Source of the DNA: Rubripirellula sp.
GTDB taxonomy: Bacteria; Planctomycetota; Planctomycetia; Pirellulales; Pirellulaceae
Assembly: GCA_012270065.1 (NCBI GenBank)
Contig: JAAXJB010000088.1
Span: forward strand, 1-64,000
Length of the DNA: 64,000 nucleotides
Direction of reading: 5' to 3'
Below the pieces are notes generated by a model. That model was given only the letters and a program-made list of their open reading frames with translations. It did no database searches and had not been told where the DNA came from. The number at the start of each line of letters is the position of its first letter. Position 1 is the stretch's first letter. The translations under genes and the position numbers were made by a program. Positions 44,164-64,000 of the stretch are shown in pieces.

Positions 44164-44817
44164 TCAGGGCAGGAAATCAAGGGTTGCCTTGCGACAATGG
44201 AATGCTTCGGCATATCTGGAACTGGAGTTGCATTCGCTGCCTCGAAGACGCATCAGCGAGCGAAATAGTTCTGCATCAAACCATGGTTTGTCCAGTTGTG
44301 ATTCGAAGCAATCCAACAGGTTTGTGATCTTCTTGCCGCAATACCGTTTCGAGATCGGCATGTACCAGTTGGGGTTGCCAAGGTCTCCTTCGTATTTGGG
44401 GATTTCGTATTCGAGAATGAGGTGATTGCGGAAAGCACACCAAGTCAATTCGGACATGACACGGTGATCCTGATGGCGATCATTGTGTCGATGCGTGAAG
44501 ATAAGATCAGGTTTTATGTTGTTCGCGATATCAGCAACGCAGGTTTTGATTTGCGACCATTGGTCAGGAAAGAAACTGTCGCGGAAATCAAACGTGGTGA
44601 TGGTTGTTTTCTGTGCACCCGAGACAAATCTCTCGGCACTTGATATTGCTTCCTGCTTGCGTTTGCTGTCGCCTGAAAAGACATACCAGTGGACATGCAG
44701 GTGTGGGTTGGCATCAATCATCTGCAGCAGGCTTCCCCCGCATCCGATTTCGATGTCGTCAGCGTGGGCTCCCAGACAGAGCACGGAATTGACATCCTTC
44801 AGGGTTACACCGTGCAT
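44164..44817 (-). CDS. PIG-L family N-deacetylase
   Basis: A 217-residue PIG-L/LmbE-type zinc deacetylase, a family that removes N-acetyl groups from GlcNAc-linked compounds. The zinc motif AHADDIE (17-23) followed by GCGG and the later HRHNDRHQDHR (about 110-120) are complete. It is the last gene of the minus-strand glycan locus and lies 12 bases after the cytidylyltransferase gene, so it is probably co-transcribed. In this setting it likely deacetylates a sugar nucleotide or lipid-linked intermediate; that is inference. Confidence 0.9.
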   Translation of the reverse strand: MHGVTLKDVNSVLCLGAHADDIEIGCGGSLLQMIDANPHLHVHWYVFSGDSKRKQEAISSAERFVSGAQKTTITTFDFRDSFFPDQWSQIKTCVADIANNIKPDLIFTHRHNDRHQDHRVMSELTWCAFRNHLILEYEIPKYEGDLGNPNWYMPISKRYCGKKITNLLDCFESQLDKPWFDAELFRSLMRLRGSECNSSSRYAEAFHCRKATLDFLP

Positions 44818-44829
44818 TGGCTTCCTCGC

Positions 44830-45669
44830 TCACCTGGGGAGATTGACGTTTTGAAAACCGGAAATGGGTGTTGTGCAGGGCACCATCGGTGCTGCCTTGT
44901 CCCATACTGCCCACGGGGTATCACCACGATCATACATGTCGTCGAGAAGCTGCTTTTCTTTGTATGTGTCCATGCAGCCCCAGAATCCGTGGTGTCTCAT
45001 GGAACGCAGTTTTCTTTCAGCGATGAGACGCTGGAACGGTTCTTCAACCAGTTCTTCGCCGTCTTGCATGTAATCAAATATGGACTTGTTAAAAACGAAG
45101 TACCCACCGTTCATCCATGTGTCAGTCTGTCCAATTTCTTCGACGCCCTCGACGACGCCCGTATTGTCGATGGAGACTTTATGGAAGGTCTGAGAAGGTC
45201 GAACGCTTACAAACGTGGCAGTCGATTCGGATTCCTCGTGGAATTTGACCAGGTCAGGCAAGTGGACGGATGATAGGCCATCGGTGTAATTCGCCAGGAA
45301 AGTTTTCTCGCCCTCAAGGTGTTGCTGTACATTTTTGAGCCGTTGGCCGATGTTGGACGCGACTCCGGTATCCACGAAAGTGATGTTCCAGTCCTGAATG
45401 TCACTATTCAATAACGAAACATCAGTCCCGCCACCACGGAGTACAAAATCATTTGAAAGGCATTCGTTGTAGTTAAGGAAATAGTCCTTCACAACGTTGG
45501 CTTTCCAACCAAGGCAGAGGATGAAATCCTTGTGACCATGGTGCGCGTAATACTTCATCACATGCCAAAGGATTGGCCGATATCCGATTGTGACCATCGG
45601 TTTGGGGATTGATTCCGAGTACTCTCGCAATCGCATGCCATATCCGCCGCAAAACAGGACAACCTTCAT
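44830..45669 (-). CDS. rfbF: Glucose-1-phosphate cytidylyltransferase
   Basis: A 279-residue nucleotidyltransferase forming CDP-glucose from CTP and glucose-1-phosphate. The N-terminus (FCGGYGMRLREYSESIPKPM) carries the activation loop and sugar-phosphate lysine characteristic of RfbF. A later NGGYFVFNKSIFDY and HHGFWGCMDTYKE (about 186-240) are also specific to this enzyme. It is about 20 residues longer than the usual 257, the excess being at the C-terminus. It lies 43 bases after the C-methyltransferase gene. It pairs metabolically with the CDP-glucose 4,6-dehydratase at 50953. Confidence 0.94.
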   Translation of the reverse strand: MKVVLFCGGYGMRLREYSESIPKPMVTIGYRPILWHVMKYYAHHGHKDFILCLGWKANVVKDYFLNYNECLSNDFVLRGGGTDVSLLNSDIQDWNITFVDTGVASNIGQRLKNVQQHLEGEKTFLANYTDGLSSVHLPDLVKFHEESESTATFVSVRPSQTFHKVSIDNTGVVEGVEEIGQTDTWMNGGYFVFNKSIFDYMQDGEELVEEPFQRLIAERKLRSMRHHGFWGCMDTYKEKQLLDDMYDRGDTPWAVWDKAAPMVPCTTPISGFQNVNLPR

Positions 45670-45712
45670 CGATATTCTCTATGTGCTCGAAAGAGGGGAA
45701 ACGCGGAAAGCT

Positions 45713-47071
45713 TTAGATGATTTCGAGTTCAGGGATTGCGACAACAAATTGTCCACCCCATTCGCGAATATGTTTCAACTGTTCAACGATCTCATCACGC
45801 AGGTTCCACGGCATGATCAAAACATAATCCGGTTTGAATTCGTCGATCACTTCAGGTGCATAGACGGGAATACGTGATCCCACCAGAAAGCTGTTCTGTT
45901 TGAACGGGTTTCGATCAACGGTGAAATCCAGCAGGTCTTCCCGGATGCCGCAGTAATTGAGCATCGTGTTTCCTTTGCCGGGTGCGCCGTATCCCACAAC
46001 GCGTTTTCCTTCGCGGCGTGCCCGGATAAGAAATTCAACGAGGTTCCATTTGGTCTCTTTCACTCGTTCGGCAAACGCGTGGAAAGTTTCCAGTTTGGTC
46101 AGACCTCGGTCGATTTCCAGTTTCCTTATGTCATGCACCGCCTGGGTGACCGGCTTTGCATCGTCATCATCGTGCGACACGTAGATTCTCAAAGATCCGC
46201 CGTGGGTCGGAATTTCTTCAACGTCGAAGATTCTCATCCCATGATGGGCGAATACCTGTTCAAGTGTGAACAGCGAGTGGTAGCAGTAATGTTCCTGATA
46301 GATTGTGTCGAGGTGGTTTTGCTCGATGATGTTCAGCAGATGGGGGTACTCGACGTTGACGATGCCGCCCTTTGCGAGAATCTGCTTCATGCCACCCACA
46401 AAGTCATTCAAATCCGGTACATGGGCCAGGCAGTTGTTGGCGATCAGCAGGTCCGCAGATTTTCCTTCCGACGCGATGCGTTTTGCCGTTTCCACACCGA
46501 AGAAATTGACATCGACGGGGATTCCCTTGTCGATCGCTACCTGAGCGACGTTGGCAGCTGGTTCGATCCCCAGGCACGGAATGCTTTTGCGGACAAAGTT
46601 CTGGAGCAGGTATCCGTCGTTGCTGGCAACCTCCACAACATGCGACGTTTCGTCAAGATTCAAACGCTCGGTTATCATGTCCACATAGGCAGCAGCATGA
46701 GCGAGCCAGGAATCAGAATAGGATGAGAAGTACGCATAGTGGCTGAATATTTCTTCGCCTGCAACGTGTTCATGTACTTGGACAAGCCAGCACTTTTCGC
46801 AGACGTACGCTCGAAGCGGATAGAAAATCTCGTGCTTGTTCAAGTCGTCACGTTCAACCTGGCTCTGGCAAAGCGGCGACATGCCGAGGTCGACAACAAC
46901 GTGTTCAAGCGGTTCGCCGCAAAAACGGCACCCACGTTGATCGGTGCTCATTTCAGCTGAGGTTTTCAATTGAGTTGCTGTTTCCATTGAATCACTCCCA
47001 GATGGCTGGCTAAGGTTAACGATGGGATTTGTGGGGCTTTGTTGTGTGTCTGTTTCGTTGAGATTCGTCAT
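45713..47071 (-). CDS. Zinc-binding SAM-dependent sugar C-methyltransferase
   Basis: A 452-residue protein with the three-part layout of NovU/TylC3-type deoxysugar C-methyltransferases. A zinc-binding domain has C48, C51, C91 and C94. The SAM domain has VVEVASNDGYLL (about 145-156) and the catalytic-type EHYCYHS motif (about 270). A C-terminal domain with GYGAPGKGNTML (about 375) completes it. Family members methylate C-3 or C-5 of 4-keto-6-deoxy sugars, which fits a CDP-4-keto-6-deoxyglucose intermediate made by neighbouring RfbF/RfbG. A four-base ATGA overlap joins it to the dioxygenase gene. Confidence 0.9.
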   Translation of the reverse strand: MTNLNETDTQQSPTNPIVNLSQPSGSDSMETATQLKTSAEMSTDQRGCRFCGEPLEHVVVDLGMSPLCQSQVERDDLNKHEIFYPLRAYVCEKCWLVQVHEHVAGEEIFSHYAYFSSYSDSWLAHAAAYVDMITERLNLDETSHVVEVASNDGYLLQNFVRKSIPCLGIEPAANVAQVAIDKGIPVDVNFFGVETAKRIASEGKSADLLIANNCLAHVPDLNDFVGGMKQILAKGGIVNVEYPHLLNIIEQNHLDTIYQEHYCYHSLFTLEQVFAHHGMRIFDVEEIPTHGGSLRIYVSHDDDDAKPVTQAVHDIRKLEIDRGLTKLETFHAFAERVKETKWNLVEFLIRARREGKRVVGYGAPGKGNTMLNYCGIREDLLDFTVDRNPFKQNSFLVGSRIPVYAPEVIDEFKPDYVLIMPWNLRDEIVEQLKHIREWGGQFVVAIPELEII

Positions 47072-48012
47072 GATTCGACCTTTTGCAACTCGGCTTTCAC
47101 GAGATGATCGGGGGTTGGGTATTTTGCAATCGACGGCAGCATCTCGTGTCTTTTGATTTCATCGTCGGAAAAATGTTCAAGATCGGTACCGCGCAGGTAA
47201 TCCATCATCGTTGTTCCCATGCATTCACTGTCAACGTTGGGGGCCCCTCTGTCGCAGGATGTATCGCGTGCATCAACCGTGCGGAAATCAATGCTGAATC
47301 GAGTGAGGCCGGATGTGTTGGGAACGGTTGAGTGCATTTGTGCTGCGGCAAAGACGATGACGCCACCAGGTTTCGTCACGATGCGGGTCTGTGGCTCAAG
47401 TTGCATTGGCTCAATTGCAGCAGACTGCACCCGTGTGTGCTTTCCAATCTGTTTTTCAGCTGCTTTGCGTCCACCCAGATTCCAGTTTTGGTAATTGAAC
47501 AGGGCGGAGGTGTTTTTAACGGGACGGTCCCAGTAGTTTGGATGAAATGCCATCGCATTTTCGGGTGCGATTGGGTAGACGGGCAGCCACCAATTCAGCT
47601 GACACATTGGCGTTGAATACCAAGTGTCGCGGTGAGGTTTGAACGCATACGCGAGGCCGCTGCTGAGGTAGTCACCTGAGCAGGCGGTTCGCAAACGCGG
47701 TACGTCGAAATAGGTGTTTTCCAGATCGCAGCCAAGTTCCCCGAGCAGCTCAGGAATCAGACGTTTGCATTCTGGATGATGAATGAACTTCGGTTTCAGT
47801 GTTTTGAGAATTTCGACATATTCTTCCACGGGAAGATGATGTTGGGCTTCTGGCGGGGTGTGGGGATGGAATGCTTCCTCACACATTTGTTGTGCGAGAT
47901 CGCAAAGTGCCAGTCCGCTTGCGGTGGGCGAAAAGACGTACAGTTGACCCGCATAGAGATTGGATCGGCGTACAGATTCACCGTCGGATGAATCGAAAAA
48001 TACTGTGTTCAT
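47068..48012 (-). CDS. Fe(II)/2-oxoglutarate dioxygenase-like protein
   Basis: A 314-residue protein showing the pattern of phytanoyl-CoA-dioxygenase-type enzymes. HRDTW (H127, D129) is followed about 100 residues later by a distal histidine (AQMHSTVPN, H227) and the 2OG-binding arginine (SGLTRFSID, R238). A hydroxylation or desaturation of a sugar or small-molecule intermediate is plausible. The frame opens at GTG 48078; I prefer the ATG at 48012 because the 22 extra residues are unremarkable, but the choice is uncertain. It is translationally coupled to the methyltransferase downstream. Confidence 0.72.
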   Translation of the reverse strand: MNTVFFDSSDGESVRRSNLYAGQLYVFSPTASGLALCDLAQQMCEEAFHPHTPPEAQHHLPVEEYVEILKTLKPKFIHHPECKRLIPELLGELGCDLENTYFDVPRLRTACSGDYLSSGLAYAFKPHRDTWYSTPMCQLNWWLPVYPIAPENAMAFHPNYWDRPVKNTSALFNYQNWNLGGRKAAEKQIGKHTRVQSAAIEPMQLEPQTRIVTKPGGVIVFAAAQMHSTVPNTSGLTRFSIDFRTVDARDTSCDRGAPNVDSECMGTTMMDYLRGTDLEHFSDDEIKRHEMLPSIAKYPTPDHLVKAELQKVES

Positions 48013-48277
48013 GGAGCGGGCCGTATTGCAGTCTGAACGCCGAGGCAGAGAGGGTGCAAACTCATTCGATTGATTCACTGTAATTGCGATGTGGTGATCG
48101 CAAAGTCAGCTGATTGTGATGGAAAGAAGTCACTCGACTTGCCGTACCAAAGGTTGGGATTGAGCCGGTTACGCTGGTTTTTCAATCATGTTCATCTGGA
48201 TCTGCGTCCAGGTGGGGCAGCGAGGTGAACTCAGGATCCGCTCATCAAATCACTGCAATGGAAATGCGGGAAGCGGT

Positions 48278-49579
48278 TCATGAGGTGGATTCAGTCAACA
48301 ATCCATGCTCGCATAACACACTCATGCCATGCTTCAGCGTTTCGATTGACAATCCGGAACGGATGGCAATACTCGGCAGGTCGGTTTTTCCGTCGGCCTG
48401 ATTGAGAATCCACATGACAGCGGACTGGAATTCCTCCGCATGTCCACTTTCTCCATATGCCTTGTAGAGCCCGTAGTCACCGAGTCGTGGCTCGCCTTTT
48501 GGCCGAAGATTGAGGGGGATGATGTTGGTTTCGATCTGATTGATGATTTCCAACAAGGCAGTGTACGAGTTTTGCAGGTGTTGGGGTTGGATGAAATCAA
48601 GGTTGTCAGCGGAGGTATGGTACTCGTTAAATTCACCAGGTGGCGTTCGCATGAAACAGCCGACAGGCAGATTGAATGCGGGTGAACAGAACTGACGTTC
48701 GTCGTATCCGGTTGGCGTGAAATTTCGCGTCGTACCGCCGTGGGAAGACACCACGTTTTCTGCAATGCGATCGATCGGTGAATCTGATCGTCGTGATCGC
48801 TTGTACGTCAGATTACCAGCGTCTCCCAGAAGACTGAGCACCAAACCGTAGTCAATGTTTCCAAGTGTCTGCTCATTTTGGGCAAGCCAGGTTACTGCGC
48901 CGATCGTTGCCGGCGCGAAGACGATCCGGTACGTGTGTTTCAGATTCCTTGTTTGCAGAACTCGGGCAATTTCTGTTGCGACAACCATGCCAGAAAGATT
49001 GTCGTTTGCAAGTGAAGGGTGGCAGCAGTGTGTGTAAAGAAGCACAGTGCGTGGTGATTTACCTTGGATGTCACATTCGGCGTAGGACAACGATCCATCA
49101 CGTGTGTTGCTGTCAATCACAACGTGATAGGTGCGTTCATCATTGGCAATGGATTGTTTCTGGCGTTCGCTGAGGCAGAAACCCCATGTGTCACGAAAAT
49201 AACCGGTGCGATATGGAATTCGGTCCTCGAATTCAGGAATTGTCCACAGGCGGGGAATCAATTCCTGCCATGACATTTTTTCATCGACTGGTTGGCTGTA
49301 ATTGATGACGTGCAGCGTGTTGTCAGCGATGTCGATGAGACGTTCGCCGGTTGCAGCATCCGCAATGAAGGCATCGTTGATGTTCCATTCCAGCGGAACC
49401 TGCCAATCGAGCACTGGTGTGCCCGTTGGAATCTCGAATACGGTGAGAGGGATTTCTTTGCTTAGTTCTTGAAATGTGTCGCGTACCCCTTGTCCTGTGA
49501 TGGACCGGTGCATTGGGAAAAGCCGGGCAGCCAGTTCATGCATCCTGGCGCCGATGCTGTTATCGCTGGTGTTCATCAT
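48278..49579 (-). CDS. DUF4910/DUF2172 aminopeptidase-like protein
   Basis: A 433-residue protein found in many polysaccharide clusters. It has a DUF2172-like N-terminal part (FPMHRSITGQGVRDT, 21-35), an M28-like zinc domain with THCCHPS...ANDNLSG (H184, H187, D193) and a C-terminal winged-helix segment (about 385-430). The metal residues suggest hydrolase activity on an amide, such as removal of an acyl or aminoacyl group, but no substrate is established to my knowledge. It overlaps the aminotransferase gene by four bases (ATGA). Confidence 0.88.
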   Translation of the reverse strand: MMNTSDNSIGARMHELAARLFPMHRSITGQGVRDTFQELSKEIPLTVFEIPTGTPVLDWQVPLEWNINDAFIADAATGERLIDIADNTLHVINYSQPVDEKMSWQELIPRLWTIPEFEDRIPYRTGYFRDTWGFCLSERQKQSIANDERTYHVVIDSNTRDGSLSYAECDIQGKSPRTVLLYTHCCHPSLANDNLSGMVVATEIARVLQTRNLKHTYRIVFAPATIGAVTWLAQNEQTLGNIDYGLVLSLLGDAGNLTYKRSRRSDSPIDRIAENVVSSHGGTTRNFTPTGYDERQFCSPAFNLPVGCFMRTPPGEFNEYHTSADNLDFIQPQHLQNSYTALLEIINQIETNIIPLNLRPKGEPRLGDYGLYKAYGESGHAEEFQSAVMWILNQADGKTDLPSIAIRSGLSIETLKHGMSVLCEHGLLTESTS

Positions 49580-50928
49580 TGCTTCACGTCTGCAAAATCG
49601 GGCAGGATCCGGTATGCCAGTTCGTTGTAATCGCGATAGACGGTCTGCGATTCACGTCCGACCAGAAATTCCTGGTACCCTAACGTGAGGGCTTGGCGAT
49701 AAACATCCAACGCCTCGTTGAACGCCTCAATGGTGTGATCAACATCGGAGTCGGAGTGCGAATAACTGATGACCAGTGATGGGCCCAGAACACCGCGTTT
49801 GATGAGTTCCTGCATCAGCAGGCAACGAAAACCCTGAGATGGTTTACCCTCTGGATCTTTTGTACCAAATACGAGGTTGCAGGGTTTTCCTATGACAGAT
49901 ACATAGTCATCAACGCCATTTGCCCGGATGACTTCATGAAGTCCTTTTTTGAGCTTTGAACCCTGTTGTTCAAGGACTTCGATGACAGGATTGTTCTGGT
50001 AATATCTCATGGTTGCGATGCCCGCGGCCATTGCATGCGTTTCAGCACCGTGGGTGGTTGATAATGCAAATACCCGTTTGCGGTCATGATAAATTCCGCT
50101 CGCCTCGAGGAGTTCGCGTTTTCCGGCCAATGCCGAAAGCGAAAATCCATTTGCCAATGCTTTCCCGAATGTTGACATGTCTGGAACGATGTCATAGGTC
50201 TGCTGCGCACCTCCGTTAGCCCACCTGAAGCCGGTGATCATTTCATCGAGAATGAAGATTGCTCCGTGTTGGCGACACAGCTCCTGGACACGATGAAGGA
50301 AGTGATCCTCAGGGTCTTCATATTTTGCCGGTTCAAGTATTACGCAGGCAATTTGATCTGGATACGTCTTGAACAGGGCTTTGACACTATCGAGATCGTT
50401 GTACTTGAAGGTCAGTGACAGATCCTGGACGGATTGAGGGATTCCGCCATTGATGGCAGTGGTGCCAATGAACCAGTCATGAATGGAGAAGAAAGGATGA
50501 TCCTGGCACAGGGCAATCCGATCACGTCCTGTTGCAGCGCGTGAGAGTTTAAGTGCCGCGGTGGTTGCGGTGGAGCCGTCTTTTGCAAATTTGCACATCT
50601 CGGCGCCCTGAATCATCCCCAGGAATTCTTCGGCGCATTGATACTCGATCAGCGCGGGGCGTGTGAAGTTGACCCCGCGCTGCATTTCTTCCGCCGCGGC
50701 GTCGACGATGGGTTGAAAAGCGTGTCCCAGTGATACCGCGCGGCAGCCCATTCCATATTCAATGAATTCGTTTCCGTCGACGTCCCATACGTGGCATCCG
50801 AGACCACGCACGATGAAACCTGGTGCAAGATATGGAAATTGGTCATCACCCTTGGCGTAGGTGTGACACCCTCCGGGCAGGATGCGATGCATCTTGCTTT
50901 GCAGTTCTCTCGATTTCGTGAAGTCCAT
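49576..50928 (-). CDS. Class III PLP aminotransferase (glutamate-1-semialdehyde aminomutase-like)
   Basis: A 450-residue fold-type I PLP enzyme. It shows LDEMITGFRW (228-237, the PLP-nitrogen Asp) and the PLP lysine in TFGKALANG (K256), plus a GSTATTAALKLSRAATGR segment (118-135) that binds the cofactor phosphate. The closest named family is glutamate-1-semialdehyde 2,1-aminomutase, but its place in a sugar locus suggests an amino-transfer on a keto-sugar or small side chain instead of haem synthesis. It sits 24 bases after the CDP-glucose dehydratase gene and overlaps the DUF4910 gene. Confidence 0.9.
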   Translation of the reverse strand: MDFTKSRELQSKMHRILPGGCHTYAKGDDQFPYLAPGFIVRGLGCHVWDVDGNEFIEYGMGCRAVSLGHAFQPIVDAAAEEMQRGVNFTRPALIEYQCAEEFLGMIQGAEMCKFAKDGSTATTAALKLSRAATGRDRIALCQDHPFFSIHDWFIGTTAINGGIPQSVQDLSLTFKYNDLDSVKALFKTYPDQIACVILEPAKYEDPEDHFLHRVQELCRQHGAIFILDEMITGFRWANGGAQQTYDIVPDMSTFGKALANGFSLSALAGKRELLEASGIYHDRKRVFALSTTHGAETHAMAAGIATMRYYQNNPVIEVLEQQGSKLKKGLHEVIRANGVDDYVSVIGKPCNLVFGTKDPEGKPSQGFRCLLMQELIKRGVLGPSLVISYSHSDSDVDHTIEAFNEALDVYRQALTLGYQEFLVGRESQTVYRDYNELAYRILPDFADVKQ

Positions 50929-52083: not shown

Positions 52084-52372
52084 GGCGTTCTCAGTTCTTG
52101 CGTCTTCGAGTCGAAATCGTTGAGGGCTTGTAGAAGTGACAGGATCCGTAAAATCCGATCTTCGGGTCTGGTGTTCAATGGAATCAGGGGTTTGTTAAAG
52201 GAGGCCGGAGTAATCAGTGCCAATCGGTAATCACTGGCAATCAGTAATCCCTGGCCTCACCGGACTCATTGCGTAACCATCCAAATGAAGTATAGGTCAC
52301 GATCTTTCTGCGGTATCAGACCATCTGTGGTGTTGGGCGGATCGCAATGGCGGACGTTGGGCAGTTTTGTTC

Positions 52373-53734
52373 TCATGGATTGGCGACTGGAAGGATCTGG
52401 TCGATATACAGGTCGTGGTTATCACCCCTGCGTCTTATCAGGGTTGATTTTGCGTCACTCACCAGAATTTCAGGTGGGGTTGCGTGACTGAGGAAATGGT
52501 GAGGGCTGGATGTTCGCCCATAAGCACCGGATTGGAATACACAAAAAATGTCTCCTTCAGACGCGGGCGGCAGCAAGGCAGCACGAGCGAGGGTATCCAA
52601 AGGGGTACAAAGAGGACCAACGACTTCGGAAAGGATGGGGTTGGGGTGGTTCATCCGGGTTGCGATTGCCACGGGAAAATTCCGCTTGATTGTCTGGCCC
52701 AGATTTCCTGAAGCAGCCAGATGGTGGTGCATGCCACCATCGATGACCACAAATACCTTGCCCCGCGAATGCTTGACTCGCGTCACCCGTGACAGATAGA
52801 GTCCAGCTTCGTTGACAAGAAATCTTCCCGGCTCAATGATAGCCCGGCACTGGCGCAGTAAATCATCGTGTTTGATTTCATGGTGGATCTGTTGCAGGGC
52901 TGTGCTTACTTTGCCAAGATCAAGAACCCGCTCTTTGGGAAAATATGGTGTGCCCCATCCGCCACCCATGTCAATTGAGCGAAGTGGTGTTTGCAGGTTG
53001 GATGCAACCTGTCGCGCCAAGGCCAGGGCTCGTCGGTATTGCTGCAGCAGGACGTCAGTGTCGAGAATCTGTGTTCCCATGAACAGGTGGACGCCCACCA
53101 CGTTGAGATGTGGCAGCTTGCTGATTGCTGAGAGTGATTCGTCGAGGGACTCTTCATCGATTCCGAATGGTGATGGGCGTCCTCCCATCCGCATTGCTCC
53201 TCCCGCAGCATCGGTCGGATTGATCCGCAACGAGATGTCGAGTTGCTTTGATCGCGACTCACAGATCCGACTCAAGGTTATTGCTTCGTCGATTGACTCG
53301 ACATGCAATTCTCCGATCCCGGCATCGACCGCTGCGACCAGGTCTTTTTCGGTTTTTCCGGGACCGGCAAAGATAATGTGACCCGCAGCACAACCCGCCT
53401 TCAAGGCCTGGAATAGTTCACCTTCTGATGCAACTTCCAGCCCAAGGTTCTGGTCCAGCATGATCTTGAGCAGGCTGGCGTTTGGATTCGCCTTGATGGA
53501 GTAATACAGATCAAAATCTGGAGGCAGAATGGACTGAACGCTTTGGACTGTTTTGCGAATTACATCCTCGTTGTACACATAGAGTGGTGATCCGTATTCT
53601 GCCACAAGCTGCGAGACGGGGATTCCCGCAACATTCAATTCGCCATCTACGATTTGAAAATGAGAGTTTGCAAGTCGAGCGACATGATCAAACGCTTCAG
53701 ACTTTCCTGATGTTGATTTATTGTTTGCTGTCAT
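52373..53734 (-). CDS. PLP-dependent decarboxylase, exosortase-A-associated type
   Basis: A 453-residue fold-type III (alanine racemase fold) decarboxylase related to diaminopimelate decarboxylase. The PLP lysine is in YYSIKANPN (K81). GVHLFMGTQ lies in the barrel (about 217), and GPLCTPLD (373-380, active-site Cys C376) and SGAYGRTSSPHHFLSH (402-417) match the variant that accompanies exosortase-A systems. Its start overlaps the acyl-CoA ligase stop (ATGA), which supports ATG 53734 over the GTG at 53743. With the adjacent ligase and acyl carrier protein it probably decarboxylates a carrier-bound or free amino acid, as BtrK does in butirosin synthesis; the substrate is inferred. Confidence 0.87.
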   Translation of the reverse strand: MTANNKSTSGKSEAFDHVARLANSHFQIVDGELNVAGIPVSQLVAEYGSPLYVYNEDVIRKTVQSVQSILPPDFDLYYSIKANPNASLLKIMLDQNLGLEVASEGELFQALKAGCAAGHIIFAGPGKTEKDLVAAVDAGIGELHVESIDEAITLSRICESRSKQLDISLRINPTDAAGGAMRMGGRPSPFGIDEESLDESLSAISKLPHLNVVGVHLFMGTQILDTDVLLQQYRRALALARQVASNLQTPLRSIDMGGGWGTPYFPKERVLDLGKVSTALQQIHHEIKHDDLLRQCRAIIEPGRFLVNEAGLYLSRVTRVKHSRGKVFVVIDGGMHHHLAASGNLGQTIKRNFPVAIATRMNHPNPILSEVVGPLCTPLDTLARAALLPPASEGDIFCVFQSGAYGRTSSPHHFLSHATPPEILVSDAKSTLIRRRGDNHDLYIDQILPVANP

Positions 53735-55350
53735 GATTCGCACTCCGCGCTCGTGGGAGTGGATTGTGCAAAATGCTCTCTCAATGCCGGGTAGTCGACT
53801 TTTCCGCTCGATGTCGAGGGAAGGTCGGTGACGATTTCTACGCGTTTGGGAATCATGTGGCGCGGTAGCATGCCTGCGCAGTGGGTGATCACATCCTCCG
53901 GATCAGTGCCTGCTCCCTCGGCTGCTATGACAAAAGCAACGAGGTGCTGGCCGAGAACGTCATCAGGGACGCCAATGACTGCTGACTGGGTGATGTTTTC
54001 CATCTTGGTGATCACGTCCTCAACTTCAGTCGGACTGATACGGAATCCTGAGGACTTGATTTGGTTGTCACGGCGACCAACGAAGTAGAGGTACCCTTCG
54101 TTGTCTCTGCGTACCAGATCACCGGAATAGCAAACCCGATCTGATTGGCTTCCGCCGGAGTTGGGAAAAGGGTGAGGGCGTAGAACTTTGTCGGTCAATT
54201 CAGGATGTCCCCAGTACCCGAGTGAGACAGTTGGACCATGGTGAACAAGCTCACCAACTTCATCGGGTGCGCATTCCTGACCATGATCGTTGACCACGAA
54301 GATTTTTGTGTTAGGGATCGGTTTGCCCATGCTTGTCGGGCGTTGGTCAAGTTGATCTGGCGGTAGATAGGTTGAACGAAAGGCCTCGGTGAGGCCATAC
54401 ATCAGAAACACCTCGGTTTTCGGCAATTGCTGTCTCAAGTCCCTGAGAACATTTTGCGGCATCGCCCCGCCGGTGTTGGTGATGTACCGAAGAGAAGGCA
54501 GAGGTTGTTTACCGAGACCGGAGCTGGGTCGCGACAGGAGATTCCACAGTGATGGAACACCAGCTAAACCGGTGATCGCATCATCTGCCAGTGAACGAAC
54601 GATTTCACGTCCAAAGCGGAAAGAGATCATTCGCGTTGTTGCACCCCGAAGGATTGCGGTGGTCAACTGGTTGAGCCCCGCATCGAAGCTCAGCGGTAAA
54701 GCTGCGAGGATTCTTTCATTTTTGTCAATCTTCAGATAATCAGCGACGATTTCGGCCCCGGCAACCAGATTGTCATGGCTTAGCATCACGCCTTTTGGCG
54801 CGCCAGTCGAGCCGGACGTGTAGAGAATCGCAGCGAGGTCCTTGCCTATATTTTCCGACTCACGGAATGATCCTACGCTCGCGGTGATCAGGTCGGCTAT
54901 CCGATGTGTTTCGGTTTTTGGTAGCGTGGGGATTTGGTCAGCCTGGCTGGATCCGTCGTCATGGATCAGGCAGTGCCGAAGGTTTTCCAGTGGGATATGT
55001 GATTCTTCAAGAGCAGTGAGTCTTTCGTGATCACTGATGAAGGCGATCGCCCCGCAATCCCGGAGAATGTGGGCAACCTGGTTTGGGTACAGCCCATGGT
55101 GGATTGGAACAAAAACCGCGTCGGCGCACGCGATCCCCATGAGACTCAGTGGAAGATTGATGCCAGGTGGTAATTGCACACCGATGCGGTCTCCGCGAGA
55201 AATACCTAGTTGACGGAGGCACTCGCCGATAGCCTTGGATGTCTGCGAAGCATCGCCATAGAGAACCTTCTGGTCCTTTTCTGTAAATGCTTCGTGATGC
55301 GGTCTGTTGCATGCGCTGTCATGCAACATGTGTTGAACGAGAAAACGCAT
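53731..55350 (-). CDS. AMP-forming acyl-CoA/ACP ligase, exosortase-A-associated type
   Basis: A 539-residue ANL-superfamily adenylating enzyme. The P-loop is YTSGSTGAPKG (177-187). A MYGLTEAF core motif (about 318), YSGDLVRRD (about 407) and the C-terminal lysine of SSGKVDYPAL (about 517) are all present, so both half-reactions should work. It would activate a carboxylic or amino acid as an adenylate and load it on the adjacent acyl carrier protein. Start ATG 55350 is seven bases from the ACP stop. The family resembles the ligase of exosortase-A clusters, though no exosortase is in the window. Confidence 0.88.
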   Translation of the reverse strand: MRFLVQHMLHDSACNRPHHEAFTEKDQKVLYGDASQTSKAIGECLRQLGISRGDRIGVQLPPGINLPLSLMGIACADAVFVPIHHGLYPNQVAHILRDCGAIAFISDHERLTALEESHIPLENLRHCLIHDDGSSQADQIPTLPKTETHRIADLITASVGSFRESENIGKDLAAILYTSGSTGAPKGVMLSHDNLVAGAEIVADYLKIDKNERILAALPLSFDAGLNQLTTAILRGATTRMISFRFGREIVRSLADDAITGLAGVPSLWNLLSRPSSGLGKQPLPSLRYITNTGGAMPQNVLRDLRQQLPKTEVFLMYGLTEAFRSTYLPPDQLDQRPTSMGKPIPNTKIFVVNDHGQECAPDEVGELVHHGPTVSLGYWGHPELTDKVLRPHPFPNSGGSQSDRVCYSGDLVRRDNEGYLYFVGRRDNQIKSSGFRISPTEVEDVITKMENITQSAVIGVPDDVLGQHLVAFVIAAEGAGTDPEDVITHCAGMLPRHMIPKRVEIVTDLPSTSSGKVDYPALREHFAQSTPTSAECES

Positions 55351-55356
55351 GATCAA

Positions 55357-55629
55357 TCACTTTTGGATGTTATTCCCACCCTGTTTTTCGGCTACATAAT
55401 CGGCAATCGTTTGAATTGAGTCGAAGTGATCAGCCACCATCTCATCGTCGAGTACCTCGAGTCCAAATTCCTGCTCAAGAAAGTCAACCACTTCCAGGGT
55501 CCCCATTGAATCGATGATTCCAGTTTCCAGCAGAGATTCGGTGTTGGCGATGGAACGATCTTTTGCAACGGGAAAAGCCGTGTAGACCCATTGCTGGATG
55601 ATGTTCAGGTTCGTGTTGTTGTCAGTCAT
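55357..55629 (-). CDS. Acyl carrier protein
   Basis: A 90-residue acidic helical protein with the phosphopantetheine-attachment serine in IIDSMGTLE (S41), about 90 residues being normal for a carrier protein. It stands immediately before the adenylating ligase and the PLP decarboxylase, so it is likely their dedicated carrier. I chose the ATG at 55629, preceded by AAGGAAT; an earlier GTG at 55659 would overlap the methyltransferase gene. Confidence 0.9.
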   Translation of the reverse strand: MTDNNTNLNIIQQWVYTAFPVAKDRSIANTESLLETGIIDSMGTLEVVDFLEQEFGLEVLDDEMVADHFDSIQTIADYVAEKQGGNNIQK

Positions 55630-55639
55630 CTTAATTCCT

Positions 55640-56815
55640 TCATGCGACCACGAGTTCACAGTCGATTTGCATTGATTTCAATGTGTTTTGTATTTCGTTT
55701 CGATAGAGTGCGTTGGTGACCACAACAACATCGGGTTTGCTCGCAGTAAGAGAATTCGGCGCAACGATCGGATGCGATACGATTGGCAGGTAATGGTTCT
55801 GACGATTTGGGTTGATGTCGATGACTTGCTCGATAACATCTGAGTTTGGCACCGATGAGAGAAAGCTAAGTCCTTTGCCACCAGAACCCCAGCAAACAAC
55901 ACGTCTACGATCACGGCGGCACTGTTCCAGTTTGGCCTTCCACCATGTGACACGGTTCGAGAATGCATCAGCAAAACTGTGCACGTCGTTGATGAAATTA
56001 TCTGGTAATTCGCATTCAATGCTGGCACTTGCTGTAGATGGCACAGCTTCGACGAAAATATATTGATCTCCCTCGTAGCAGGTTCCTGAACTGGTAATTT
56101 CGAAACCAGCGAGTCGGAAGATGTTCCTCAGCGATTCAGGACTGAAGTAGTTGCATTGCTCGTAATGCACACTCCATACCTCCTGTTGAGAGATTGCGCG
56201 GTAACCGTTGAATACTTCGAAATAGATCCGCACGTCTCGTGTCCCAATCGAGTGACGCAGACTTTTCAGGAAATCAAGTGGATTTGGAATGTCTTCAAAT
56301 ACGGAGAGACTGCAGATAAAGTCACCGATCATATTCTCGTAACGATTGCTGTAGAAATCCGGAATCAACTCCATGGTTCCTGAGCCACAACGCTCACGGG
56401 TATTTTGGCGTATGGTGGGATCGATTCCCACGCCGTGGTTTCCACCGTTGGTGCAGATCATCCGCAGAAAATCAGCGGAACCACATCCAATTTCCAGGAT
56501 TCTTTTCCCATTCAAAGAATGGTCGGCGATCAACCTGTCGCATAACGATTCGATGTAGTTGCAAAAGGTTGGTGTATGCAGCAATGAAACTTCGTATCCC
56601 GGTTCAAACCCGATGATGGCAGGATCGTACTCTCTGTTTTCAATCAATCCGCAATGTTCGCAGGCAACCAGATCGATGGTTCCGGGAACCGAGTTTCGAG
56701 CATCACTCGGTGTCGCAGCCAATCTTCCGAGGGCCACTGGTGCTGATTGATTGAGGAAGATCGGATGAGATGTGTCTTTTCCGCATCCGCTGCATGCGGG
56801 TCGAGTTCGGTTCAT
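55640..56815 (-). CDS. Zinc-binding SAM-dependent methyltransferase
   Basis: A 391-residue protein with an N-terminal zinc-type domain (C8-x2-C11 and C52-x2-C55), a SAM domain with ILEIGCGSADFL (106-117) and a C-terminal domain with VVCWGSGGKGLSFLS (about 300-315), which parallels the NovU-type layout of 45713-47071. It is shorter and diverged, so its methyl acceptor may differ. The ATG at 56815 overlaps the stop of the upstream membrane-protein gene (ATGA), which fixes the start; the ACP gene follows after 10 bases. Confidence 0.84.
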   Translation of the reverse strand: MNRTRPACSGCGKDTSHPIFLNQSAPVALGRLAATPSDARNSVPGTIDLVACEHCGLIENREYDPAIIGFEPGYEVSLLHTPTFCNYIESLCDRLIADHSLNGKRILEIGCGSADFLRMICTNGGNHGVGIDPTIRQNTRERCGSGTMELIPDFYSNRYENMIGDFICSLSVFEDIPNPLDFLKSLRHSIGTRDVRIYFEVFNGYRAISQQEVWSVHYEQCNYFSPESLRNIFRLAGFEITSSGTCYEGDQYIFVEAVPSTASASIECELPDNFINDVHSFADAFSNRVTWWKAKLEQCRRDRRRVVCWGSGGKGLSFLSSVPNSDVIEQVIDINPNRQNHYLPIVSHPIVAPNSLTASKPDVVVVTNALYRNEIQNTLKSMQIDCELVVA

Positions 56816-57708
56816 GAATTTCGTCCCCCCATGGCATCGGAAGGTACTTGCACCCATATGCTGATGTTCTGGAGGTTGATGAAGTCCAGGAGGCTGCATA
56901 GGAACAATGCCATGCCTGCCATTTCCATCATTTCTTCGATGGCTTGGCTGATGATGTGGGCAGTTGAACTGACCGCCTCCAATTCATTCGCGGAGGAACT
57001 GAATATGAGGCCTGCGATCAATTCCATGCCAATATCACCTGCCAGAAATATGAAAGCGGATGATACAAAGAGTAGCTGTGTTCTCCGGTGTAGATCGAGA
57101 AGCAGGCGAGTGCACATTGAGCCTGCAATCAGCGCAAAAATCGAGCCGGGAATGACCCAGGAAAAATAGAGTGACGTTCCCATGCCCAATTTGTTCATGG
57201 CAGCCGTTCCCATTTCGTGAAACATGACGGTTTCGTCAATTGCGAGCAGGGAAAGAATGAAAGACAGGAATATCCAGGAAATGCGACGTCGGCTTTGATC
57301 GGCCGTGTCATAAATGGCAAGGAATCCCGCAGCCGCGGCTGCCAACAGCATGACGATTGAAGAATAGAATGCTGGGATGCTCGGTTCGTGGCCCAAGTCA
57401 AAGCGTTTCAGCACATCAGCAATTTCATGTTCTGGATGCGGTGCGACGTTGTAAATGGAGTAGTTCGCAAGTGCTCCGAAAAATATCACGCCGATGATGA
57501 TGCATGCAAAGAATCGTCCGGTTTTCCGAACGTTGATATGGACGCGTGAGATGTTTTCTCTCGCGGACTGTTCAATTGCATTCTTTGGGTTTTCGATTTG
57601 CGGTGACAGAACATCGGCATGGTGTTTCGGATTGGTACCGTTTGGGTCGATGTCGTGATTTTGCTGGACGCCGTGTTTGAGCGTTTCTTTCTGGTCATCT
57701 GACATCAT
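56812..57708 (-). CDS. Multi-pass membrane protein with conserved acidic motifs
   Basis: A 298-residue protein with a polar N-terminus (1-62) and seven or so hydrophobic segments (from about 66 to 285). Acidic and histidine residues occur inside or next to membrane helices: IDETVMFHE (about 155-163), DIGMELIAG (about 220) and EEMMEMAG (about 258). Such placement often marks a metal site or proton path, but I recognise no named family. Its stop codon overlaps the methyltransferase start, so it is a genuine member of the glycan operon. Confidence 0.72.
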   Translation of the reverse strand: MMSDDQKETLKHGVQQNHDIDPNGTNPKHHADVLSPQIENPKNAIEQSARENISRVHINVRKTGRFFACIIIGVIFFGALANYSIYNVAPHPEHEIADVLKRFDLGHEPSIPAFYSSIVMLLAAAAAGFLAIYDTADQSRRRISWIFLSFILSLLAIDETVMFHEMGTAAMNKLGMGTSLYFSWVIPGSIFALIAGSMCTRLLLDLHRRTQLLFVSSAFIFLAGDIGMELIAGLIFSSSANELEAVSSTAHIISQAIEEMMEMAGMALFLCSLLDFINLQNISIWVQVPSDAMGGRNS

Positions 57709-61465: not shown

Positions 61466-64000
61466 TCAGTCTGCATTTTTCCAGTTCCATGATTTGAATC
61501 GAGCACGGAACACCAGAACGAGAAAGATCGTTTCACAAGCGGTTCCCACGATCAGTGCAATTGCGGCTCCAAGGATTCCGAATACCCAGATCAGGGGTAT
61601 TGCACATGTAAGCGTGACCACTGTGCCGACGATGGTTGCATGCAGTGATCCACGTGGGTATTCCAGAGCTATCAGGCCATGATGTGAGCCTATCGCCGGA
61701 ATTCCAAATAACATTCGCATCGCCAGAATGACCACAACAAGCGTGTAATTCTGGTAATCCGGATTGTTGTAAATGAGTTGAAGCAGTTCCGAAGAGAAGA
61801 GCATCGCTCCGAAGGCAAAGGAACCCACAAATATGCTAAGCAGCGTGGTGGTCTTCCAGAACAGTAACGATGTTTCGCTTCGGTTGCCGGATGAGACAGT
61901 TTCAGCAAATTGGGGCGACAGATAGTTCCCAATTCCCGCAAGAAAGGGACCTGCCAGGGCTGCGATGGAAGCACAAGCGGCGAAGATGCCTGTTGCAGAG
62001 GGAGCGATCATCAGCGTCAACAGCCACGGCATGCCATAAAGTTGCACAAAACAGACAAGTTGATCGATGAGAAGCCAACGGCCCAACTTCCAGTCGTTCT
62101 TGATGGATTCGCGGAGTGTGCCGTATGGGAACTGGAAAGAGTTTCGATGTGTCACCATCCAGCCGCAGACCATTAGTAACTGTGAAATCCCGATGATGAG
62201 AAGTGCAAGCGAGGTAGTCAGTTCACCCATGCTTGCCAACGCGACGAGGGACGCAAGTTGGATCAATGAGACGCCACTGTCGAATGTAACAGCGCTGGAC
62301 ATGTTCAATCCCGCCATGTCGAACCGGCGTGAAAATTCACAAAGAATCGCACAGGGCACGGTGATGACAAGAACCCAAACGATGGATCGGATTTTTGGAT
62401 CGAGTTCGGTGCTACTGAATCCAATTGCGATGAATGTCAGAGCAGTCAGAAGTACGCTTGAGTAAAGAAGAGTGGTGAGCAGTGATGCCCCGGCGTAGGA
62501 CCTGGGATTCATTCGCTCCGTGACTCGGGAGCGTAATACTGTGTATGGTGTAGATATGAGCGACTGCTGTACACCGCGGGAGAAAATGACGACGCTGATT
62601 GCAAGTGAAAACAAACCAAGCCCCTCGGACCCACATGCTCGTTCAACGATCACGATGGTCACAAAACTTGTGCCGCTGACAATCAATTGATCCAGCATAG
62701 CCATTGCCGAGCGTAGCTTTTTTTTGTTGACCCAAGAGGGTATTCGCTGTGCTGTGATCCATCCGCGTGATTTGTTTTCAGGCGATCTTTGATTTCGTGT
62801 TGGAACCTGGCTTGACGTTCCTGGGAGTAATGCCCGAGGGCCAAGACGGATTCCCTGTCCGACTCCCAATCCAAGCATTGTGTAGAACACAACCGATTCG
62901 GATCTTACCGGGCCCATGAAGGAAGCCGAAAACAGGCTCCAACCTGCAAACCATACCATCACCAGAAACAGTAGCCAAAACAGGTTTTTCGATGTCTGAT
63001 CAGCATTCTGGAGTTTTGTGAAGCGAAATAGCAGACTCGCGATAGCAATCGAAAAAAGAATCAACCCAATGAGCCCCGTGCCACTCAATACCTGAAGGTA
63101 AATGTTATGCGCGGTATGGTTGGCAAGCATTTCCCATACTTCCATTTCGCCAGCAGCACTGGTTAAAAAATAGCCGTGACCAGTGAACGGTGATTTGAGG
63201 TATTCATTCCAGACTTTGGTCCACATTTCCTCGCGACCGGACAAGGCCTTCAATTGCATGAGAGATTGGCCACGCATCATGTAGGACACGCCGATATTGC
63301 TATCTTTGGTCAAGGAGTGGAAACCGGGATCTGCGATCAGTTGAAACAGGATTGTTGCCGCACCTGCCAATCCAAGCCACGCACGACGAATGTTGTCACC
63401 GGTGAGAAACAGGCAAAGAGGGATGGTGACGAGAGTCATGCCCCATGCTGATCGGCTACTGGCCAGCACCAGGACAGTTCCATGAATACAGACTGATGCC
63501 AACAGCATCTGTTTTGACCATTTGTATTTCTGCAGGAATGTGCAAGCGACAGCGATCAGCAGCCCAAGTGATGCATTGGCAGATGCGGCTGTGGGGTGCA
63601 CCAATCCGTCCGCGCCGGCAATCAACATGCGTCGGTCGAGTCCGGATAGGCCGGGGAAAACAACATGAATGATCAGCAACAGGACGCTGAGGAGCAGGAG
63701 TGCGTAGCAAAGGTTCTTCAGTACGATTTCGATACCGCCCTGTCTTGTTGCGATGAGGGCAACAAGGCACGAAATGATCAATAGGCTGGTTACACCTCCT
63801 GACTGACCAAGGGAGATGGACATGCGAGCGCTCCATGTGACGCTCAGAATTGCCCATCCAAGAAATAGGAAATAGGGAAAAAACGCTCTCAGGATCGCAA
63901 AGAGTGCCGGTTCTTCACGAACCAGACGTTGCGTCGTCAGAGTCTGTGCTTGCAGCCACTGCTGAATCAGGATCAAACTACCAAAGACAAGAACCGTTAA
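61466..64000 (-). CDS. O-antigen polymerase/ligase fused to a Wzx-type flippase, 5' end beyond the window
   Basis: One uninterrupted minus-strand frame of at least 844 codons. The N-terminal part is an O-antigen ligase/polymerase: many helices and the Wzy_C signature SGREEMW...FTGHGYF (about 245-270 counted from TTG 63976) with HNIYLQVLSGTGLIGLILF. A polar linker (about 385-418) leads into a second unit (about 419-830) with the helices and length of a MATE/Wzx polysaccharide flippase (VERACGSEGLGLFSLAISV). Neither half has a broken motif. No stop precedes the TTG and the frame stays open to base 64000 (reading LTVLVFGS), so the true start probably lies outside the window. Such a fusion would join export and polymerisation in one polypeptide. 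Confidence 0.87.
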   Translation of the reverse strand, partial: LTVLVFGSLILIQQWLQAQTLTTQRLVREEPALFAILRAFFPYFLFLGWAILSVTWSARMSISLGQSGGVTSLLIISCLVALIATRQGGIEIVLKNLCYALLLLSVLLLIIHVVFPGLSGLDRRMLIAGADGLVHPTAASANASLGLLIAVACTFLQKYKWSKQMLLASVCIHGTVLVLASSRSAWGMTLVTIPLCLFLTGDNIRRAWLGLAGAATILFQLIADPGFHSLTKDSNIGVSYMMRGQSLMQLKALSGREEMWTKVWNEYLKSPFTGHGYFLTSAAGEMEVWEMLANHTAHNIYLQVLSGTGLIGLILFSIAIASLLFRFTKLQNADQTSKNLFWLLFLVMVWFAGWSLFSASFMGPVRSESVVFYTMLGLGVGQGIRLGPRALLPGTSSQVPTRNQRSPENKSRGWITAQRIPSWVNKKKLRSAMAMLDQLIVSGTSFVTIVIVERACGSEGLGLFSLAISVVIFSRGVQQSLISTPYTVLRSRVTERMNPRSYAGASLLTTLLYSSVLLTALTFIAIGFSSTELDPKIRSIVWVLVITVPCAILCEFSRRFDMAGLNMSSAVTFDSGVSLIQLASLVALASMGELTTSLALLIIGISQLLMVCGWMVTHRNSFQFPYGTLRESIKNDWKLGRWLLIDQLVCFVQLYGMPWLLTLMIAPSATGIFAACASIAALAGPFLAGIGNYLSPQFAETVSSGNRSETSLLFWKTTTLLSIFVGSFAFGAMLFSSELLQLIYNNPDYQNYTLVVVILAMRMLFGIPAIGSHHGLIALEYPRGSLHATIVGTVVTLTCAIPLIWVFGILGAAIALIVGTACETIFLVLVFRARFKSWNWKNAD

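Follow-up and report, generated by a model that had tools for sequence, protein, structure and literature searches.

The locus studied here raises the question of what a carrier protein, an adenylating ligase and a decarboxylase do together inside a glycan locus of a planctomycete. The window, that is, the whole stretch of DNA that was analysed, comprises 64,000 nucleotides (positions 1 to 64,000, forward strand, of contig JAAXJB010000088.1 in assembly GCA_012270065.1, Rubripirellula sp., Pirellulaceae). It lies on contig C91 of the source genome, G000, of which contigs C11, C63 and C79 are also named below; other G-numbers stand for genomes and L-numbers for the individual loci, stretches or proteins that were compared. 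The initial annotation had described a carrier protein, a ligase and a pyridoxal phosphate (PLP) decarboxylase in a glycan setting, and both parts of that description hold, as the three genes adjoin on the minus strand and the family matches of their neighbors form a glycan locus. The trio consists of the following genes.

55357..55629, minus strand: stand-alone acyl carrier protein (ACP), 90 aa from its ATG (PF00550)
53731..55356, minus strand: putative amino-acid:ACP ligase of the ANL family, likely start ATG 55350 (PF00501 + PF13193, TIGR03098)
52373..53743, minus strand: PLP decarboxylase of predicted BtrK type, likely start ATG 53734 (PF02784 + PF00278, TIGR03099)

Read 5' to 3' on the minus strand, the order is ACP, ligase, decarboxylase. 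The genes are tightly packed, with the ligase ATG (55350) lying 6 bases beyond the ACP stop and the decarboxylase ATG (53734) overlapped by the ligase stop. The ACP scores 21.2 bits against PF00550 (cut-off 20.8), its closest PDB match is the peptidyl carrier protein 2my5, and its carrier motif GIIDS holds the predicted phosphopantetheine site, Ser41, which is kept in 46/46 aligned rows (the window and 45 trio ACPs directly upstream of a ligase). The decarboxylase belongs to the ornithine/diaminopimelate/arginine decarboxylase class. We consider it probable, with real room for doubt, that the trio builds an omega-aminoacyl group on a carrier protein, and that a tandem GNAT protein, named c3 here, would move this group to an acceptor that is most likely a sugar of the locus glycan.

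The trio is not a chance grouping, because the same genes are found together again across many phyla. A scan with a decarboxylase alignment confirmed 205 loci, with relatives in Planctomycetota, Acidobacteriota, Nitrospirota, Pseudomonadota, Actinomycetota, Chloroflexota, Myxococcota and others. All locus counts given here refer to the best 80 of these 205; the 80 are not independent, since many come from Agrobacterium and Rhizobium, and absences are soft because metagenome-assembled genomes (MAGs) are incomplete. By script, the ligase gene stands directly before the decarboxylase gene in 70/80 loci, and the ACP gene stands directly before the ligase gene in 45/80 and farther upstream in 8 more. 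The remaining 27 have no ACP match, and 9 of these are cut by a contig edge. The script tallies err low, as a ligase is present in two of the ten loci scored as lacking one (L080 and L083) and an ACP in at least three of the 27 (L061, L092 and L126). Among 60 relatives of the source genome, a high-scoring TIGR03099 decarboxylase was found only in G000, G005 and G049, and a broken one in G025. G025, a genome of the same family, has a further and more distant ACP/decarboxylase/ligase set (L046), with the decarboxylase and ligase frames broken. Additionally, the trio of L058, which comes from a Rhizobiaceae record, is nested among the Pirellulaceae in the decarboxylase tree, which suggests that it was transferred recently or that its contig was mis-binned.

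The decarboxylase groups with BtrK and not with the diaminopimelate decarboxylase LysA. In a PDB search the closest solved structure is BtrK (298 bits), compared with 196 bits for the top diaminopimelate decarboxylase, and BtrK converts glutamyl-BtrI to 4-aminobutyryl-BtrI according to PMC7857480. A tree was built from 55 rows, namely the window, G005, G049, 41 loci selected for spread from the 78 in which the decarboxylase was usable, BtrK, one solved diaminopimelate decarboxylase and nine LysA-type proteins, the last being the relatives' best lower-scoring matches, chosen by motif and not separately annotated. The 10 LysA-type rows part from the 45 others with a support of 100/99, and BtrK sits on a long branch whose own placement is weak (93/84). 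An RP motif and CES or CET mark the LysA-type rows, and the same places are taken by LAAS and CTP in the window and by AAS and CTP in BtrK; T380 and P381 are each kept in 79/81 trio decarboxylases. The top-scoring NCBIfam family is TIGR03099, with 424.7 bits against a cut-off of 478.45 that is passed by the decarboxylase in only 1/37 genomes searched (G078). The lysA model gives 286, under its cut-off of 297.9. The decarboxylase of L048 lies above that cut-off (309.6), which shows that genes of this kind can be wrongly named by automatic annotation. A further full-length, lower-scoring relative (141.5 bits) at C11:227082-228248 is presumably the lysA of this genome. The possibility that the enzyme acts only on free diaminopimelate is therefore opposed, as far as comparison can tell, by BtrK as the closest structure and by the split from the LysA-type rows. 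In other genomes, a BtrK-like decarboxylase gene directly follows a gene for an ATP-grasp protein (PF18604) in Kibdelosporangium (L124, 8679-11245), and one lies beside a gene related to that upstream ATP-grasp gene in an Anammoxibacter MAG (L125); these may be butirosin-like pairs.

For the ligase, TIGR03098 is the top-scoring NCBIfam family (564.0 bits, below the cut-off of 592.35). The ligases of L048 (606.8) and L078 (630.4) lie above this cut-off, and those of L087 (577.7) and L121 (472.8) below it. No FadD-type model was above its cut-off among the best 25 of 107 families, the top one reaching 323 against 476. A Foldseek search with the whole model gave no separation of substrates; coenzyme A (CoA) synthetases were on top and VinN was not among the best 50. 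In the PDB search with the whole ligase, DltA chains scored about 114 bits. When residues 200-350 alone were searched against the PDB, the two VinN entries 3wv4 and 3wvn led (E 6e-14 and 7e-14), followed by CmiS6 (4e-10) and then by 4-chlorobenzoyl-CoA ligases, HitB and IdnL1 at about 1e-6 to 4e-5, the names VinN, CmiS6, HitB and IdnL1 being those of a table in PMC11253843. According to the same paper, the substrates of VinN are 3-methylaspartate and aspartate, its D230 contacts the amino group, its loop is one residue shorter and bears K330 and R331, and F231 and S299 are marks of its pocket.

The ligase residues D225, A226, T295, F326 and R327 align with VinN D230, F231, S299, K330 and R331 (VinN numbers were counted by hand as the chain position minus 16), and the specificity loop aligns without a gap. 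The amino-acid-type ligase on C63 has one more residue in this loop. The window ligase thus has the VinN-type combination of an Asp for the amino group and an Arg in the shortened loop, but Phe231, Ser299 and Lys330 are not matched, their places being taken by A226, T295 and F326. A set of 66 trio ligases was aligned (the window, G005, G049 and 63 of the 80 loci, those with a ligase covering at least 400 query residues); L060 and G049 are one genome, counted twice here and in the 81 decarboxylase rows. D225 and R327 are invariant in 66/66 and F326 is kept in 65/66. Two main pocket types were seen, DANATNTMFRSK in 29 rows, including the window, and DYNATNSMFRSK in another 29. The second, 'type Y', is found mostly in Alphaproteobacteria and has Tyr and Ser where VinN has Phe231 and Ser299; VinN's own TECKR string is present in the ligase of L121. 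The window pocket type would be roomier than type Y, and glutamate as well as aspartate would be a candidate substrate to test. Three other ANL proteins of the genome were also aligned (L003, L005 and L008). None has the Arg and two lack the Asp; the third, L008, has it, so that an Asp at the D225 position does not settle the matter by itself.

These data bear on two other explanations of the enzymes. In the first, both would be misread housekeeping proteins, namely a ligase for fatty acyl-CoA/ACP and an additional LysA. The generic family names, the FadD-type scores on the ligase, the lead of CoA synthetases in Foldseek, the Asp of L008 and the lysA score of L048 could all be taken this way. 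However, Arg327 is invariant in the trio and absent from the other ANL proteins aligned, VinN is the best pocket match, the LysA motifs are missing, and a separate decarboxylase of LysA size is available on C11, which makes such a misreading very unlikely. Activation of fatty acids only is opposed by the VinN match, again at the level of sequence, and fatty-acid activation or lysine biosynthesis was rejected as the likely role on family scores, BtrK likeness, motifs and the VinN-like pocket. In the second explanation, the two enzymes would not act in sequence; the ligase would activate an ordinary amino acid at its alpha-carboxyl, and the decarboxylase would use a different, free substrate. 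The pocket Asp is indeed shared with adenylation domains for alpha-amino acids (GrsA D235), and A226 corresponds to GrsA A236, as given in PMC11253843. Against this stand the shortened loop with an Arg at the position of VinN R331, the placement of the decarboxylase on the BtrK side, and the adjacency of the ligase and decarboxylase genes at most loci, and we give this explanation only a slim chance.

From the families, pocket alignment, motifs, gene order and GNAT-trio partnership, which are established by sequence comparison, we infer the substrate, product and acceptor of a carrier-protein pathway that would run as follows. The ANL ligase would use ATP to adenylate an amino-dicarboxylic acid, for example aspartate, 3-methylaspartate or glutamate, at its side-chain carboxyl (beta or gamma). 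By analogy with VinN, Asp225 would hold the amino group of the substrate and Arg327 its alpha-carboxylate, and the acyl group would be loaded on the Ser41 phosphopantetheine of the ACP. While the substrate is still bound to the carrier, its alpha-carboxyl would be stripped by the BtrK/VinO-like PLP enzyme, and the resulting thioester, of the beta-alanyl, 3-aminoisobutyryl or 4-aminobutyryl type, would have a free amine. A precedent is found in the vicenistatin pathway, where VinL is loaded with 3-methylaspartate by VinN and the thioester, which must form first, is decarboxylated by VinO, as reported in PMC11284099. Finally, c3, which is encoded on C63 in G000, would hand the acyl group on, the most likely acceptor being a sugar of the locus glycan, and so create an amine side chain. 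An amine side chain on the glycan is indirectly supported by the joint decay of the trio with the GNAT and by gene context.

The transferase c3 was found by clustering of neighbors, as a protein of about 300 aa that recurs beside the trio. By profile, it lies near the trio and on the same strand in 34/80 loci. Its start lies 1.3-1.7 kb after the decarboxylase start in 9 of these (L048, L049, L050, L056, L058, L059, L071, L107 and L109) and 2.5-3.0 kb before it in 25, mostly from rhizobia and other Alphaproteobacteria and including two Actinomycetes MAGs. The occurrence of two positions in mixed lineages argues for a functional tie between c3 and the trio. Genome-wide, c3 was found in 37/80 trio genomes (30 + 7/50, with two weak generic matches left out), and the copy in the L066 genome has an internal stop. 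In a sample of the phylum, c3 was found in 3/392 genomes (G000, G453 and G499), all of which have the trio, and in G453 and G499 it lies within about 3 kb of the ACP-ligase-decarboxylase genes; this sample was searched with c3 alone, and the best 6 candidates were scored per listed genome. Pfam gives only weak GNAT matches to c3, with PF00583 in 6/20 members, and the copy of G000 has no NCBIfam match. An AlphaFold2 model of the L048 protein (pLDDT 88.4) is predicted to match tandem GNATs of the Eis type, with a best Foldseek E of 1.3e-9 and, among the 50 matches listed, identities of 8-14% and query TM-scores of 0.34-0.59. A profile search of the PDB gave one meaningless match. Two looser GNAT-like groups are also found near the trio in other loci, and their profiles cross-detect. 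As judged from sequence, c3 is a putative partner transferase newly noticed here and outside the named Pfam and NCBIfam families. On C63, a second aminoacyl-carrier cassette of G000 (L043, 5115-10131, minus strand) encodes a formyltransferase, a GNAT (PF13527), an ACP, an amino-acid-type ANL ligase and a luciferase-like monooxygenase, and it is conserved in G005 and G020.

The genes around the trio are needed to follow its fate in relatives and are as follows.

56812..57708, minus strand: TM298, uncharacterised and apparently multi-membrane, matched by no Pfam or NCBIfam family
55640..56899, minus strand: S-adenosylmethionine C-methyltransferase-like protein, directly before the ACP gene (PF13489 + PF08484)
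52084..52372: gap without a gene between the decarboxylase and the CDP-glucose dehydratase, a place that a tandem GNAT occupies in L049
50953..52083, minus strand: CDP-glucose 4,6-dehydratase, opening the CDP-sugar module after the trio (TIGR02622, 438 bits vs cut-off 278)
44164..50928, minus strand: remainder of the CDP-sugar module, from family matches and synteny in G005 and G020

The trio and c3 appear to have been lost together. Among the 60 relatives, c3 is intact only in G000 and G005, which both have an intact trio in the glycan locus; it is broken in G008 and G020, and G051 has a weak generic match. The genome of G020, a sister species, is 99% complete and carries the same glycan locus split over two contigs, with the CDP-sugar module on its C236 and the Wzy, glycosyltransferase, WecG, epimerase, TM298, methyltransferase and CDP-glucose dehydratase genes on its C260. 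The interval between methyltransferase and dehydratase is 1177 bases in G020, compared with 3557 in the window and 3484 in G005. It holds collinear remnants of the ACP (E 1.2e-4), of the ligase (4.8e-6 vs the window's and 6.8e-8 vs G005's) and, weakest, of the decarboxylase (0.035 by tblastn, and a 51-residue blastp match under 1e-4), while the reversed or shuffled stretch gave no match at E 0.05. In the same genome c3 is broken, TM298 is without its middle segment, and the ligase/ACP/luciferase-like/GNAT/formyltransferase cassette adjacent to c3 is full-length. The trio and c3, perhaps with TM298, decayed together in G020, and most other glycan genes stayed. G008 is concordant, with stops in c3 and no match to the decarboxylase, in a genome that is 77% complete. 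The C63 cassette was considered as the sole owner of c3 and rejected, since in G020 this cassette is intact and c3 and the trio are broken.

Gene context is what points to a sugar as the acceptor. Most genes of the CDP-sugar module adjoin the trio in G000, G005, L048, L049 and L061, and in L049 c3 lies on the same strand as the decarboxylase and the CDP-glucose dehydratase, between the two; the dehydratase gene as such was observed beside the trio in G000, G005 and L049. The C-methyltransferase-like gene is kept beside the trio in G005, and G499 groups the trio, the GNAT, TM298, the methyltransferase and a flippase-like match. TM298 is possibly a further member of the module, because it lies beside the trio, c3 and the methyltransferase in G499 and has lost its middle segment in G020. 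The module is syntenic in G020, and in G005 up to the contig end. The part at 44164..50928 encodes a class-III aminotransferase, a DUF4910/HTH_47 protein, a weak 2-oxoglutarate-oxygenase-like match, a C-methyltransferase, a PF00483 nucleotidyl transferase that by reading is RfbF, and a PIG-L deacetylase. Within it, at 48278-49579, the DUF4910/DUF2172 protein with an HTH_47 tail is matched in 7/60 relatives, with identity above 60% only in G000, G005 and G020. Upstream of the trio the locus also has a sugar epimerase/dehydratase, a WecG-type transferase, a group-1 glycosyltransferase and a Wzy_C protein. The frame at 61466-63976, which continues beyond the window (L041), encodes a single long protein; its first half has a Wzy_C domain, its second half is flippase-like by reading, and two stop codons part the halves in G020.

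Several points weigh against the proposed pathway or against its glycan acceptor. As noted above, the Foldseek ranking does not single out VinN and the pocket Asp also occurs in L008, and given the changes F231 to A226, K330 to F326 and S299 to T295 the substrate may not be aspartate. Furthermore, c3 is not found in 43/80 trio genomes, so other transferases must serve there. In G000 itself, c3 is not beside the trio; its copy lies on C63 in a second glycan-type stretch, where the neighboring ligase/ACP set could be its partner instead. The joint decay comes from one well-covered genome, G020, uncorrected for kinship. In G049 the trio is intact, with c3 absent, and lies outside a glycan locus, among UvrC-like, M56-peptidase and aldo/keto-reductase genes. 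The glycan genes of the window are also unmatched around the rhizobial cassettes, save for one class-III aminotransferase match at 22% (L113), and one rhizobial cassette has a queuosine-synthesis gene as its neighbor. The rhizobial and G049 contexts may mean that acceptors differ between lineages. They also fit an alternative in which the acceptor of the omega-aminoacyl group is a lipid, a peptide or a small secreted molecule and the trio simply happens to adjoin the glycan locus, and GNATs in general have many acceptors. However, the recurrence of the CDP-sugar module beside the trio and the gene groupings of L049 and G499 favor a glycan sugar, and we regard a non-glycan target as unlikely, though it deserves to be kept in view.

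A different question is whether the trio serves protein sorting. The initial annotation had matched it to the exosortase-A-associated set and had noted that no exosortase is visible in the window. TIGR03098 and TIGR03099 are indeed the best NCBIfam families, and both are typed as hypothetical equivalogs and named 'exosortase A system-associated', but both enzymes miss the curated cut-offs. The absence from the window was confirmed, the sole PF09721 match of the genome being on C79. This protein scores above the cut-off of the general exosortase model (137.9 vs 105.55) and below that of XrtA (138.7 vs 208), and its neighbors match PrsT, EpsI and tyrosine-kinase models, mostly under cut-off. The genome search for an exosortase and PEP-CTERM proteins that had been suggested thus found one exosortase, but only a single PEP-CTERM match, at 16 bits against a cut-off of 20.7. 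The gene for this sub-threshold protein (L010) lies about 30 kb from the exosortase locus (L042) on C79. An exosortase was found in 34/80 trio genomes (28/50 + 6/30, that of G113 being weak and partial), and G005, G025 and G049 have at least one each. It was not found in 46/80, which include Agrobacterium and Methylobacterium isolates. In 5 of the 34 (G076, G085, G086, G127 and G133) it lies less than 50 kb from the decarboxylase gene on one contig, in G090 (Nitrospira moscoviensis) the two are 1.3 Mb apart on the chromosome, and in the remaining 28 they are on separate contigs, many of them short. The trio does not require an exosortase, because 46/80 trio genomes show none and linkage within 50 kb is seen in 5/34.

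An obligate role as an exosortase accessory was rejected on the strength of the missed cut-offs, the location on C79 and the trio genomes without an exosortase. A looser association would have the trio serve PEP-CTERM sorting, for example by making an amine-bearing group for the exosortase pathway, so that its presence here would reflect that system. The family labels, the exosortase of G000 with its PrsT-like, EpsI-like and tyrosine-kinase neighbors, and the exosortases of other trio genomes can be cited for it. The missed family cut-offs, an exosortase under the XrtA cut-off, the lone sub-threshold PEP-CTERM match and the 46/80 genomes without an exosortase speak against it, as does the scarcity of close linkage, though many contigs are short, and we consider such an association improbable. 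In the open-licence literature, no description was found that combines exosortase/PEP-CTERM with this ligase-decarboxylase-ACP set, which is not proof of absence in print, and no mention of TIGR03098, TIGR03099 or their label phrases was found in open-licence papers. The words decarboxylase, ligase and acyl carrier are absent from the text of Haft 2006. N-acyl amino acid synthases near PEP-CTERM genes have been described, with a chemistry different from that of the trio.

The analysis presented here gives two neighborhood-named NCBI families a concrete candidate chemistry, the loading of an amino-dicarboxylate and its decarboxylation on a carrier. It would also carry the logic of antibiotic starter units and side chains to a probable surface polymer, add a transferase family, and separate the set from exosortases. 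A broader reading, which we offer tentatively and hold to be possible without being the likelier outcome, is that an undescribed, horizontally spread ACP/ligase/decarboxylase/tandem-GNAT system, with TM298 in planctomycetes, puts omega-aminoacyl amines of the beta-alanyl or 4-aminobutyryl type on surface glycans and is the function behind both 'exosortase A-associated' families. Should the glycan bear an omega-amino group, the surface would change in charge and in attachment, which would matter for biofilm life, and the anchoring of sorted proteins may be affected. In lineages with an exosortase, the omega-amine might even be the nucleophile for attachment of sorted proteins, though this is speculation with little probability behind it.

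Several known systems resemble parts of the proposed pathway. The TIGR03098 + TIGR03099 set shares its best families with both enzymes, and the L048 and L078 ligases and the G078 decarboxylase pass the cut-offs; however, the window proteins fall under both, the locus has no exosortase, and the label describes a neighborhood and not a function. The Eis-like tandem GNAT acetyltransferases have a fold like that predicted for c3, whose presumed donor is an acyl-ACP. DltA and DltC are a stand-alone ANL ligase and a carrier protein that provide D-alanine for teichoic acids, with transfer by DltB and DltD, so that they too load an amino acid on a carrier for a surface polymer, but without a decarboxylase. 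The parallel with BtrI/BtrJ/BtrK of the butirosin side chain, drawn in the initial annotation, stands as regards the decarboxylation of a carrier-bound amino acid, and BtrK is the closest PDB relative of the decarboxylase. It is not the closest precedent, however, because BtrJ is an ATP-grasp ligase, whereas the window ligase is an ANL protein (PF00501/PF13193) of the same superfamily as VinN; the butirosin target is also an aminoglycoside. VinN/VinL/VinO, which make the vicenistatin starter unit in Streptomyces halstedii, have the same three components, an ANL ligase, a stand-alone ACP and a PLP decarboxylase, and the window ligase shares the pocket Asp and Arg and the loop length of VinN. 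The differences are the A, T and F in place of VinN F231, S299 and K330, the lack of a visible polyketide synthase at the window locus, the tandem GNAT proposed instead of VinK, and the surface glycan setting. Similar chemistry is known from antibiotics, and what is new here is that an amino acid would be decarboxylated on its carrier in a setting that is probably the decoration of a surface glycan.

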